From Actinomycetes bacterium (GTDB lineage: Bacteria; Actinomycetota; Thermoleophilia; Solirubrobacterales; Solirubrobacteraceae): a DNA stretch of 52,605 nt. Of this stretch, positions 44,230-47,705 are shown piece by piece. Where the stretch lies: NCBI GenBank assembly GCA_021851525.1, contig JAJZDA010000003.1:1-52605 (forward strand). The letters run 5' to 3'. Made by a program: the position numbers and the translations under genes. A model generated the notes under the pieces. The model made no database searches. It was not told the DNA's origin and saw only the letters and a list, made by a program, of their open reading frames with translations. Numbering within the stretch: position 1 is the first letter of the stretch; every line of letters starts with the position of its first letter.

Positions 44230-44310
44230 CTGTCCTCCCTGCCGGCCGGTCCGCCGATTCGTACAAACGTCCACACGAAAGATTGCTTACGTACTTTCGG
44301 TGATGTTGCG

Positions 44311-44324
44311 CGTGAACCTTCACG
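44311..44324. promoter_or_regulatory. Inverted repeat upstream of the secreted protein/sigma operon
   Basis: CGTGAACCTTCACG: six-base arms CGTGAA/TTCACG around CC, immediately before GATAAG, which could be a -10 box. It lies between the divergent glutamate dehydrogenase and the plus-strand operon, 59 bases before the ATG at 44383. It is a candidate operator for either side. Confidence 0.35.
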
Positions 44325-44382: not shown

Positions 44383-45873
44383 ATGGCAAGCAGATCAAAC
44401 GTGAAGCGCAAGCTCACCGCTTTTGCGGGGGTTGCGGCGGCCGCGGTGAGCGTTTCCGCCTCACAGGCGGGCGCCCACCTGCTGGCGCGCGACTCGCAGG
44501 GCGGCTCAGGTGACCTCAAGACGCTGGTCACCGGCACGGTGCTGACCGTCACCAACGGCAGCTTCACCGCCAACGCCTACGTGCTGATGCCGAGCGCAAT
44601 CGGCACCGGCGCGACCCCGACCCTCACGCCGGTGACGATCACCGAGAGCTCGGAGACGGACATCAACGTGCAGGGTGGCGGCCCGCTGGCGCCCGGAGAC
44701 ACGTTCTACGCGACCTACAAGGGTCAGCCCAACACGACGCCGATCACGACGCTCGTGGCGGCCACCCCCAACAAGATCATGGCGCTCCCGGGGAGCGCTC
44801 CTGAGGTCGAGGTCAAGGGCGTGGTCACCGCCGCGCCGACCGCCACCGCCCCGGACCAGTTCACCGCCACTGCGGAGATCGTGCTGCCGGTGGACCACGC
44901 CTACTGGCAGCTGCAGCAGCAGTCCTCTGGCTCACAGAGCGGCAGCTCCGGCGACGGCTCCGGCAACAGCTCCGGTGACGGGTCAGGATCGGGCGCCAGC
45001 AACTCCGGCAGCACCCAGCTGCTGGGCAGCGGCTCCAGCTCCCCCTCCTCAGGGGGCAGCACCGACAACATCGACCACCTGCGCGCGCATGACTCCGGCT
45101 TCAACGCCGGGACGCCGAACACGGTGATCACCGCGGGGCCCGGCACGACGTTCCAGATCAACGGCAACAGCTCAACGTCCGCCAGCGGGCTGGGCGTCGG
45201 CCAGCAGTTCACCGCGATCTTCGCCGGCAACCCGTATGAGACGCTCGCCCAGATCGTCGCCACCCCGCCGATCTCGGTGATGACCGACGGCTCATCCGGC
45301 GACGGTGGATCGTGGGGCAGCCAGGGATCGGGCGGCAGCCAGGGGTCCGGCGGCGGCCAGCAGACCGTGACCGACTCGCTCTACGCGTTCGTCGGCAAGG
45401 TCACGGCGGTCAACAGCGCCACCACCCCCGAGACGGTCACGGTGGCCGTCACGCAGTCGACCCCCAACGGTCTGCTGACCGGCACCGACACCTTCGACGT
45501 CGGTCTGAACACGCTGCTGCTGGGCAACAACTCGAGCAACCCGCTGTTGAACTCGCTGCAGAGCGTCAACGTCGGTGACATCGTGGCCGGCGGGGTTGTC
45601 GCACCGACCGGTCAGAGCGCCAGCGCGATTGAGAGCTCGACGCTCCAGGTGCTGGTCGACTTCCCGGGCTCCAGCACGGCCGCCAGCACCCCGCAGGTGC
45701 GGATGCTGCGTCATGCCGAGCTGCGCCGGGCGATGCGGGTTCTGGGCAAGCGGCTGAAGGCCGTCAACCGCCACAAGAAGCATCACGGCGGCAAGCACCG
45801 TGGCGGCAAGGGCCACGGCGGCAAGGGCCACGGCGGCAGGGGCCACAGGCACCACAAGCACGGCCGCCCGTAG
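44383..45873 (+). CDS. Secreted beta-rich protein with DUF5666-like modules and His/Lys/Gly tail
   Basis: A 496-residue exported protein. A signal sequence (KRKLTAFAGVAAAAVSVSAS) probably ends near residue 31. Three similar modules, at about 46-110, 145-290 and 330-430, each begin with a small barrel strand pattern (VTGTVLTVTNGSFTANAYVL, VKGVVTAAPTATAPDQFTAT, FVGKVTAVNSATTPETVTVA) and end with a GxxVxA-type segment, like DUF5666 repeats. Module 2 is split by a Ser/Gly-rich insert. The C-terminal about 40 residues are HHGGKHRGGKGHGGKGHGG-like, possibly metal- or wall-binding. GGAGG precedes the ATG. It is 32 bases upstream of the sigma fusion gene. Confidence 0.75.
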   Translation: MASRSNVKRKLTAFAGVAAAAVSVSASQAGAHLLARDSQGGSGDLKTLVTGTVLTVTNGSFTANAYVLMPSAIGTGATPTLTPVTITESSETDINVQGGGPLAPGDTFYATYKGQPNTTPITTLVAATPNKIMALPGSAPEVEVKGVVTAAPTATAPDQFTATAEIVLPVDHAYWQLQQQSSGSQSGSSGDGSGNSSGDGSGSGASNSGSTQLLGSGSSSPSSGGSTDNIDHLRAHDSGFNAGTPNTVITAGPGTTFQINGNSSTSASGLGVGQQFTAIFAGNPYETLAQIVATPPISVMTDGSSGDGGSWGSQGSGGSQGSGGGQQTVTDSLYAFVGKVTAVNSATTPETVTVAVTQSTPNGLLTGTDTFDVGLNTLLLGNNSSNPLLNSLQSVNVGDIVAGGVVAPTGQSASAIESSTLQVLVDFPGSSTAASTPQVRMLRHAELRRAMRVLGKRLKAVNRHKKHHGGKHRGGKGHGGKGHGGRGHRHHKHGRP

Positions 45874-45905
45874 CGGACGGTTGCGCCCGCTAGGAGAATG
45901 AAGTC

Positions 45906-47705
45906 ATGAGCGCGGTGAGCGGTGGTCAGTCCCGCAACCCAAGTGCGGGTCCAAGACCACCGCTCGCCGTGCCTGCGCGGCTGCTGCGGCTGCGCTCCGA
46001 CGCAGCCCTGGCGGAGCGCATCGCAGCCGGGGATGAGGGCGCGTTTGACGTCCTCTACGAGCGCCACCGACCGGTGGTGCTCGCCGTTTGCATGGGCATC
46101 CTCGGCATCCCCCAGGACGCCGAGGATGCAACCCAGGAGGCCTTCTCGGCGCTGACCGTGGCGCTGCGCAGCCAGGGCGTGGATGAGGTCCGGCCCTGGC
46201 TGTTGCGCGTGGCGCGCAACGCCGCGATCGACACCACCCGGCGGCGCAAGCATCGGCTGCTGACCGCCGATGGTGAGCTGCCTGAGCCCGCCGTGGTGCA
46301 ACGCTCCGGCAAGGAGGAGTACGAGGGCAAGGAGGAGTTTGAAGCGGTGCTGGAGGGGATCCGCCGGCTGCCGGAGACGCAGCGCACGGCGCTGCTGATG
46401 CGTGAGCTGAGCGGACACTCCTACGGGGAGATCGCGTCGTTGCTGGAGACCGATGAGGCCACCGTGCGCGGCCTCATCGCACGTGCACGCAGCGGCCTGC
46501 GCAATCAGCGCGAGGCCGCCGATCTGCCCTGCGCCAGCGCCCGCACCTGCATCGACGCGGAGCCGGACGGGCGCCGCTATGACCGCGCCACGCGAAGGCA
46601 CCTGCGCGGCTGCTCGCAGTGCCGCGACTACCGCGCCTCGGTGCGTGAGGACGGCCGCAGGCTGCGTGCCGGCTTTGCGATCCAGTCCGGCAGCGCGATC
46701 GGTGGTGGCGGGCTGGTGGCGGGCGCGATGAGCGCCGCCAAGGCGACGCTCGTGGCCGCCAGCGTGCCGCAGCTTGCCGCCACCTGCGCCTCGGTCTGCG
46801 CGATCGGCACGGTCGGCGGGATCGTGCTGCTGGCACCTTCGCATCCGATCCGCCCGCACCGGGCGCTCAGCGCGGCACCGAACGTCCCACGGACCGGCTC
46901 CACCCCGCAGGCCGCGGGCGCCGGCGCGATCAAGCTTGCACCGGCGCGCCCGACCGGCGATCGCCCACCCGCACACCATCACCACGTCCGCAACACGCTC
47001 CCGCAGCACACGGTGTCGCTGCTGGGCAAGGGCAAGCTGCCGCCTCTGATCGAGCACGAGGGCGAGGCCGGTTCCGGCAGCGCCACGCTGCTGAAGGGCG
47101 GCTCAGGCGACGCGTCGGCGGGGAGCGGCGACGCGAGCTCAGCCGGGCATGGCGCCGCCTCCGACGGCTCCGCCCCGGCGCGGGGTGACGGGCACGGCTC
47201 CTCCTCCGACGGGCATGGCGCTCCGACCGCCGGCAGCTCCTCCGACAGGCAGCCCGCCACCGGCGATGGCGGTGGATCCTCCGGCTCAGACTCGACCAAC
47301 CGGTCCGGCTCCGGGGGCGACACGAGCAGGTCCGGCGGCTCGGGTACCACGACCCTGCTGAACGGCTCAGGCAGTCAGCAGTCCGGTGACGGCTCGAGCG
47401 CAGGGTCCGACGGCTCCACCGCCGCCAGCTCAGACGCGGTGACCTCAACGTCGACCACCGCCGCGAGCAACGCGACGTCCACCACACCGGCGGGCACGAC
47501 GACAACCTCCTCCACGCCGACCGGCACCACGACGTCCACCAGCACGACGCCCACCAGCACCAGCACGACGCCCACCACCACCAGCACGACGCCCACCACC
47601 ACCAGCACGACGCCCACCACCACCAGCACGACGCCCACCACCACCAGCACGACGCCCACCACCACCTCCGCGCCGCCACCGCCTTCCAGCGGCTCCGGCG
47701 CATAG
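45906..47705 (+). CDS. ECF sigma factor fused to a zinc anti-sigma-like motif, membrane segment and surface tail
   Basis: A 599-residue single chain. Sigma-2 covers about 33-117 (FDVLYERHRPVVLAV, DAEDATQEAFSAL, RPWLLRVARNAAIDTTRRRK). Sigma-4 covers about 145-200 (LPETQRTALLMRELSGHSYG and TVRGLIARARSGLR). Directly after it comes a zinc anti-sigma/zf-HC2-like element: C209, C215, then H232xxxC236xxC239 (RHLRGCSQC). Residues about 264-310 are hydrophobic and Ala-rich, with a likely TM helix in AATCASVCAIGTVGGIVLLA. The remaining about 290 residues are Ser/Gly/Asp then Thr/Pro low complexity, ending in TTPTTTS repeats. AGGAGA is upstream of the ATG. Inferred role: a sigma factor tethered to and controlled at the membrane within one polypeptide. 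Confidence 0.85.
   Translation: MSAVSGGQSRNPSAGPRPPLAVPARLLRLRSDAALAERIAAGDEGAFDVLYERHRPVVLAVCMGILGIPQDAEDATQEAFSALTVALRSQGVDEVRPWLLRVARNAAIDTTRRRKHRLLTADGELPEPAVVQRSGKEEYEGKEEFEAVLEGIRRLPETQRTALLMRELSGHSYGEIASLLETDEATVRGLIARARSGLRNQREAADLPCASARTCIDAEPDGRRYDRATRRHLRGCSQCRDYRASVREDGRRLRAGFAIQSGSAIGGGGLVAGAMSAAKATLVAASVPQLAATCASVCAIGTVGGIVLLAPSHPIRPHRALSAAPNVPRTGSTPQAAGAGAIKLAPARPTGDRPPAHHHHVRNTLPQHTVSLLGKGKLPPLIEHEGEAGSGSATLLKGGSGDASAGSGDASSAGHGAASDGSAPARGDGHGSSSDGHGAPTAGSSSDRQPATGDGGGSSGSDSTNRSGSGGDTSRSGGSGTTTLLNGSGSQQSGDGSSAGSDGSTAASSDAVTSTSTTAASNATSTTPAGTTTTSSTPTGTTTSTSTTPTSTSTTPTTTSTTPTTTSTTPTTTSTTPTTTSTTPTTTSAPPPPSSGSGA
47540..47670. repeat. 21-bp coding repeat (TTPTTTS) in the sigma fusion tail
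   Basis: Repeated units of ACGCCCACCACCACCAGCAC and variants encode a Thr/Pro/Ser heptad about six times. The period is a multiple of three, so copy number can change without a frameshift. Confidence 0.85.

Follow-up and report, generated by a model that had tools for sequence, protein, structure and literature searches.

A stretch of 52,605 nt from an Actinomycetes bacterium of the Solirubrobacteraceae (contig JAJZDA010000003.1; "the window" below, meaning the whole stretch at its full length) contains, at positions 44383-47705, a gene for a secreted-looking protein followed directly by a gene that joins a sigma factor of the extracytoplasmic function (ECF) type to a zinc anti-sigma-type domain, a candidate membrane segment and a long low-complexity tail. 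The two open reading frames (ORFs), located on the + strand like all window features described below, were confirmed at 44383-45873 (496 amino acids, aa) and 45906-47705 (599 aa), and 32 bases separate them. The longer product, assigned by Pfam, alignment and a family profile, is termed the fused sigma, and the shorter one the partner. A first-pass annotation of the same DNA had read the 599-aa protein as a sigma factor and its anti-sigma factor in one chain and had considered the arrangement unusual.

The fused sigma and the secreted partner

The ECF membership of the 599-aa protein is supported by two Pfam models that both exceed the cut-off. Sigma region 2 comprises residues 50-115 (46053-46250; PF04542, E 1.7e-13; predicted local distance difference test (pLDDT) values mostly 70-83), and region 4 residues 146-195 (46341-46490; PF08281, E 8.9e-14; pLDDT only about 50-70), so that the sigma-2/sigma-4 pair is intact, as the first-pass annotation had stated. 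No other Pfam model besides sigma and helix-turn-helix types was found up to E 1, and NCBIfam returned general sigma-factor models only among the best 25 of 92 matches, with sigma70-ECF exceeding its cut-off. For the AlphaFold2 (AF2) model, which was built from only three sequences, the top-ranked Foldseek chains were AlgU, E. coli SigE and SigW, at low whole-model template modelling scores of about 0.2. The genome itself has 31 region-2 matches, and an open frame of more than 500 aa is found at this gene only.

Region 4 is followed by a zinc anti-sigma (ZAS)-type domain (46509-46670) with the residues C209, H232, C236 and C239. AF2 places three helices at 209-257, with a pLDDT of about 85 as far as residue 250, which matches the expectation for such a domain. 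A profile of the zinc regions from 82 further fused sigmas, none of them in the orthologue group, matched with the search space set to 1000 residues 202-255 of the window protein (36.4 bits, E 1.9e-10), with C209, H232, C236 and C239 in its motif columns, and found no match in any other of the 44 called window ORFs searched. These four residues are invariant in two aligned orthologues, and the third (L067) carries the same string. Thus, C209 and the HxxxCxxC string at 232-239, which had been singled out in the first pass, are conserved, whereas C215, singled out with them, is variable in the orthologue alignment. The Pfam model zf-HC2 left the window protein unmatched and matched 46 of 108 family zinc regions at E ≤ 1. 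Viral contigs scanned with residues 197-313 gave 68 pattern stretches, none of which was confirmed. Judged from its sequence, the domain is of the ZAS type, stands after sigma region 4 as in the published plan of ECF48, ECF52 and ECF53, and may bind zinc.

Further downstream, the hydrophobic stretch that had been placed around residues 264-310 consists of a peak at 290-310 (Kyte-Doolittle 2.0, a moderate value) and a weaker stretch at 269-287 (1.46). The candidate membrane segment, residues 290-311 (46773-46838), contains a Cys pair, C294/C298, seen in the orthologue alignment. Such a pair lies within the hydrophobic segment of the window protein and all three of its orthologues, as C-x3-C in the former and C-x4-C in the latter; a scan of the 107 long fusions of the survey described below found it in the three orthologues and in only 1 of the 104 others. 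The 60 residues preceding the segment contain 10 Lys or Arg versus 3 Asp or Glu; therefore, the sigma part is expected inside, and a topology with the sigma part inside and the tail outside appears likely.

The segment is followed by a stalk enriched in His (46839-47105; 8 His in 89 residues) and by a Ser/Gly/Thr low-complexity tail (47106-47702). When 107 long fusions are ordered by the His content of the 90 residues that follow the segment, the orthologues take places 1, 2 and 20. The family mean is itself raised (4.3% versus 2.2% in the window ORFs), so that part of the enrichment is general. Altogether, residues 312-599 form a low-complexity region of 288 residues, close to the 290 or so estimated in the first pass, that lacks Cys and contains a 21-base unit repeated 6.2 times (47536-47666). 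That the tail is a frameshift or other artefact, a possibility raised in the first-pass annotation, was ruled out, because comparable tails of 274, 279 and 332 residues past the hydrophobic segment are present in all three orthologues; the tail of L067 terminates in a stretch with two undetermined bases.

The partner has a signal-peptide-like start by our own signal-peptide rule (hydrophobic core 11-25) and consists of three modules and a basic end. Module 1 (44515-44793) is seen in this species only of the four compared: neither orthologous partner has it, a search of 40 related genomes gave no relative for residues 41-175, and no confident structural model was obtained. Module 2 (44803-45285) carries, in the structural model, a Ser/Gly insert between the first two strands and the rest. 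Its strands, at model residues 114-140 and 217-274, reach pLDDT block means of 69-84, apart from the edge (56) and the insert (at most 31). Module 3 (45373-45663) is an OB-type beta barrel with a fold likeness to CusF-type proteins. The C-terminal end (45703-45870) is rich in His, Lys and Gly, with 11 His in 56 residues, and basic His-rich ends are present in both orthologous partners, too. With module 2 taken without its insert, modules 1 and 2 resemble each other at z 5.3 (reached in 0 of 500 shuffles) and modules 2 and 3 at z 3.1 (3 of 500), with z 1.2 for modules 1 and 3 (72 of 500), in agreement with the three related modules of the first-pass annotation. The insert (44884-45111), which breaks module 2 after the first strands, is similar in composition to the tail of the fused sigma, and both contain an LL-x-GSGS-like stretch.

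Searches with the partner returned little. No Pfam model matched the full 496-aa protein up to E 1, a search of solved-structure sequences with the partner core found nothing up to E 10, and DUF5666 matched weakly (E 0.079) one of three partner cores, which was not that of the window. The metal site of CusF is formed by His, Met and Trp. Module 3 (residues 331-427) has none of the three, and CusF-like metal binding was rejected for it; the likeness to the periplasmic metal-binding proteins with this OB fold is one of fold only.

The clade of four species and its upstream element

The closest relatives of the fused sigma form a clade of four, with support 100/100, that comprises the window protein and its orthologues in the genomes G041 (67% identity), G006 (61%) and G013 (55%). 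Within the genus, 4 of 28 genomes have it, and among 232 genomes of the order no further one attains E 1e-41, with ten first-look candidates scored per listed genome. The sigma genes of G006 and G013 are each directly preceded by a gene for a secreted protein built in the same way, and the G013 pair occupies another position in the chromosome, next to a gene that by eye is DnaG-like. The first-pass annotation had proposed looking for the partner beside homologues; it stands there in two of the three orthologues and is missing from the nearest, G041. A profile of the partner core matched in 4 of 232 genomes, namely the three pairs and G109, a genome of another genus in which the relative (L072, 4984-5952; E 8.4e-12) is located beside an Mrp-like gene, with no sigma gene among the ORFs listed near it. 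A contig scan with the partner alignment recovered the G006 and G013 contigs only. The conserved adjacency argues for a link between sigma and partner, in which the latter may be an output or a co-sensor.

A search for a common promoter upstream of 44383 had also been proposed, and a candidate was found. The sequence ACTTT-N13-CGT (44293-44313), a candidate ECF-type promoter, is located 90 bases before the first operon gene in the window, 77 in G006 and G013 (in G013, the count runs to an inner start codon, and it is 23 when taken from the outer start) and 210 in G041. It is the sole dyad of a 5-mer and a 3-mer, with a gap of 10-22, that is common to all four 250-base upstream regions; at least one shared dyad was observed in 1% of 400 Markov resamplings, with word lengths that had been set after the element was spotted by eye. 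The spacing suits ECF promoters. The element precedes the partner gene where a partner exists and the sigma gene in G041, and we read it as a candidate promoter for autoregulation of the own operon.

There was no sign of a large genome-wide regulon. The narrower form SWACTTT-N13-CGT, which does not fit the G006 site, has 24 matches in the four genomes, versus 36 for a reversed control, with a single match in G013 (this site) and 6 in the own genome. The surroundings of 13 of the 24 matches were inspected, on one strand only, and three matches (L154, L161 and L175) are located 51, 322 and 95 bases, respectively, before genes with exported-looking starts; those in L161 and L175 also lie inside an opposite-strand ORF.

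Long fused sigmas across the order

Residues 1-314 of the fused sigma were matched in all 41 genomes searched (40 related genomes and the own one, E ≤ 0.001), in many cases via the sigma part alone. The survey covers 101 stretches: of the listed matches whose open frame measures roughly 400 aa and upwards, nearly all were included, plus a few with shorter frames; at least two matches, G002:C265 and G008:C430, fall outside it. As the sample was picked for long frames, it displays the look of long fusions, not their frequency among all sigma factors. The stretches contain 109 sigma ORFs, and 107 of these have at least 120 residues past sigma region 4. The zinc string C/H-x18-32-H-x3-C-x2-C is complete in 85 of these 107 long fused sigmas, and 85 of the 97 tails that were long enough to measure consist of Ser, Gly, Thr, Pro and Ala to at least 60%. 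That the window protein is a one-off oddity is thereby ruled out: all 41 genomes match the query, and long fusions are frequent among them. The architecture is not unusual either, given these frequencies and its publication for ECF48, ECF52 and ECF53, so that the first-pass annotation erred in this respect, whereas its reading of a sigma and an anti-sigma part in one chain holds as far as can be judged from the sequence.

Of 202 genes next to fused sigmas, 39 look secreted, versus 40 among 382 genes elsewhere (p 0.005 by Fisher's test), a statistic that ignores relatedness and can serve as a lead only. The signal-peptide rule behind it gives false positives (a CsaA-like protein and Mce proteins) and false negatives (L057 and L110). 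Six groups of partner labels cluster in the sigma tree, requiring 5 changes versus a shuffled mean of 13.8 (0 of 200 shuffles as low); the labels were assigned by eye and locus, and near-copies alone could yield such clustering. The largest sub-clade (48 rows) has none of the grouped partner kinds.

A second sigma clade, lacking the zinc string (L057 5586-6926, L080 2213-3643, L106 2098-3432 and L110 2281-3579, plus the upstream secreted genes), has a different secreted beta-module protein, encoded directly upstream in 4 of 4 members at a gap of 37-56 bases. In all four, which are close relatives, both the sigma and the upstream protein have a Ser/Thr/Gly tail followed by a terminal Asp-Asn. 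Homology of this beta-module protein with the window partner was rejected (hhalign probability 2.2%), and the resemblance is one by eye only. Its weak Pfam matches, CusF_Ec (E 0.026), TTC5_OB (0.075) and SUKH-3 (0.1), each in 1 of 4 members, prove nothing.

In further clades, the neighbouring genes encode, as judged by eye, small proteins that are secreted, a propeller-like protein or repeats of a calcium-binding-like kind. Two genomes (L126 3785-10143 and L132 3667-10819) each have three long fused sigma genes close together, flanked by secreted genes with repeats that look calcium-binding-like by eye. In L046, L056, L100, L116 and L129, small secreted proteins with motifs of the GTPFSxCV type, mostly in two copies, are encoded downstream of fused sigmas on the same strand, at gaps of 35-104 bases, or 1068 bases in L129.

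Known systems, proposed mechanism and alternatives

The single-chain sigma/anti-sigma plan is already in print, which explains the main surprise of the first-pass annotation. The published account of ECF48, ECF52 and ECF53 of Actinobacteria describes C-terminal fusions with a zinc finger, likely a ZAS domain, one or two membrane helices and extensions that reach 400 residues, for which activation by proteolysis is expected (PMC8999054). By this description, the window protein is similar to ECF48 and ECF53 as an actinobacterial C-terminal zinc-finger fusion with a candidate membrane segment. A further parallel is ECF52, the group of SCO4117 from Streptomyces coelicolor. SCO4117 is given as the best understood case of the actinobacterial fused groups (PMC8999054), and ECF52 factors combine an ECF sigma, a zinc finger, a membrane region and a long extension in one chain, with proteolytic release proposed (PMC5826349). 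For SCO4117, positive autoregulation was suggested and a truncated form was described as retaining part of the function (PMC5826349). ECF52 differs in having a proline-rich stretch and a carbohydrate-binding module (PMC5826349). The low-complexity extension of the window protein, in contrast, gave no such module in Pfam up to E 1; no recognised domain stands in its Ser/Gly/Thr-rich tail, and the gene directly upstream encodes a secreted protein. IutY (ECF243) of Pseudomonas putida is likewise a sigma fused to a membrane-bound anti-sigma part and freed by proteolysis, but it responds to the siderophore aerobactin in cell-surface signalling, and a zinc domain goes unmentioned in the part of the source that deals with it (PMC8999054). 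Among the papers listed in the literature searches, which did not extend to the main ECF classification papers, none reported fused sigmas from Thermoleophilia or Solirubrobacter. New here, on present sequence evidence, would be the secreted neighbour, the Cys pair and the shared upstream element in the clade of four species.

We consider it probable that the 599-aa protein is a self-inhibited, membrane-tethered ECF sigma that is freed by proteolysis and drives its own operon, with the partner as a co-regulated envelope output or a co-sensor. By analogy with the family, the ZAS-type domain between region 4 and the membrane segment would keep the sigma inactive. An extracytoplasmic cue may then act on either the His-enriched stalk or the tail rich in Ser, Gly and Thr, and cutting would take place outside and then within the membrane, steps reportedly demonstrated among fused ECF factors for IutY only. 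The cytoplasmic part, once trimmed, would join RNA polymerase and read the candidate promoter ACTTT-N13-CGT before its own operon, so that sigma and secreted OB-module protein would rise together. Proteolytic release has precedents: it was proposed for ECF48, ECF52 and ECF53 and shown for IutY, which is released by Prc and RseP and, according to the same account, is alone among fused ECF factors in having its activation worked out experimentally (PMC8999054). The own genome encodes two M50 intramembrane peptidases, which allow such a release; as the M50 family was found in all 14 control genomes, the support is weak. Alternatively, the sigma might work from the membrane without proteolysis, with a signal loosening the zinc domain and RNA polymerase being recruited to membrane-near promoter DNA. 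A single chain would indeed require no dissociation of partners, and no cleavage site is evident, but the release of IutY, together with the SCO4117 data, which were read as supporting release (PMC8999054, PMC5826349), makes this very unlikely.

Several observations weigh against the favoured tethered and proteolytically freed sigma. The segment of the window protein is only moderately hydrophobic, AF2 is without confidence over the region (pLDDT about 30 or less), and a two-pass topology is possible, because if residues 269-287 also crossed the membrane, the tail would lie inside. Hydrophobic segments are, moreover, frequent from composition alone: with a hydropathy of at least 1.6 and located 30-190 residues past sigma region 4, they were found in 38 of 107 shuffled copies, and in 58 of 107 at the laxer cut-off of 1.4. 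The excess of reversed-control matches over those of the promoter motif counts on the same side, as does G041, discussed below. The moderate hydropathy, its frequency in shuffled copies and the missing AF2 confidence would also suit a cytoplasmic sigma that combines a zinc domain with a disordered tail and is encoded next to an ordinary secreted protein. We regard such an arrangement as quite unlikely, since 100 of the 107 long fusions pass the 1.6 cut-off, and all 107 the 1.4 cut-off, with a median segment start 92 residues past region 4, since the window tail lacks Cys, and since one orthologue keeps the pair although its location in the chromosome differs. Composition accounts for part of the membrane-segment signal of the family, not for all of it, and the shuffled control therefore leaves us slightly less confident in the tethered sigma and slightly more so in a protein without a membrane segment.

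The first-pass annotation had taken the partner for a possible ligand or target. CnrX and RseB act as co-sensors in other systems, and the secreted OB-module protein might similarly bind the stalk or tail outside and shield it from the first protease or, when ligand-loaded, trigger cutting. Such a function is possible, though doubtful. It would fit the adjacency in three of the four clade members, at a different chromosomal place in one, the Ser/Gly low complexity and the His-rich outside parts of both proteins, and the beta-module protein that the second sigma clade has directly upstream in 4 of 4 members. Against it stands G041, the nearest orthologue, which retains the sigma, the most His-rich stalk and the promoter element but has no adjoining partner: the gap from the sigma gene to its neighbour is only 252 bases, and the partner profile gave no match in this genome, which is 93% complete. 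As G041 retains the genes flanking the window pair and the tree places it beside the window (bootstrap 100; Shimodaira-Hasegawa-like approximate likelihood ratio test 61), partner loss is the simplest account. A sigma kept without its partner speaks against an obligatory ligand, and the largest surveyed sub-clade, which does without any of the grouped partner kinds, points in the same direction. Most likely, the circuit produces the partner as an envelope output, which feeds back on the circuit, and an obligatory sensor is less likely. A more speculative metal or redox circuit, which we regard as unlikely, would have the His-rich partner capture metal and pass it to, or compete for it with, the His stalk, while the Cys pair in the membrane senses metal or oxidation and gates the cutting; fused sigmas would then have repeatedly gained clade-specific secreted partners, which, if this were true, would be the outside arm of one-protein signalling.

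Transmembrane signalling by one protein, with sigma, brake, anchor and outside part in a single chain, has been described but has received little study. The plan recurs many times in the bacteria of this survey, and several sub-clades have an adjoining secreted gene. Fused sigmas with and without a partner, and with and without the zinc motif, thus provide natural comparisons for the study of sigma release and of outside sensing.

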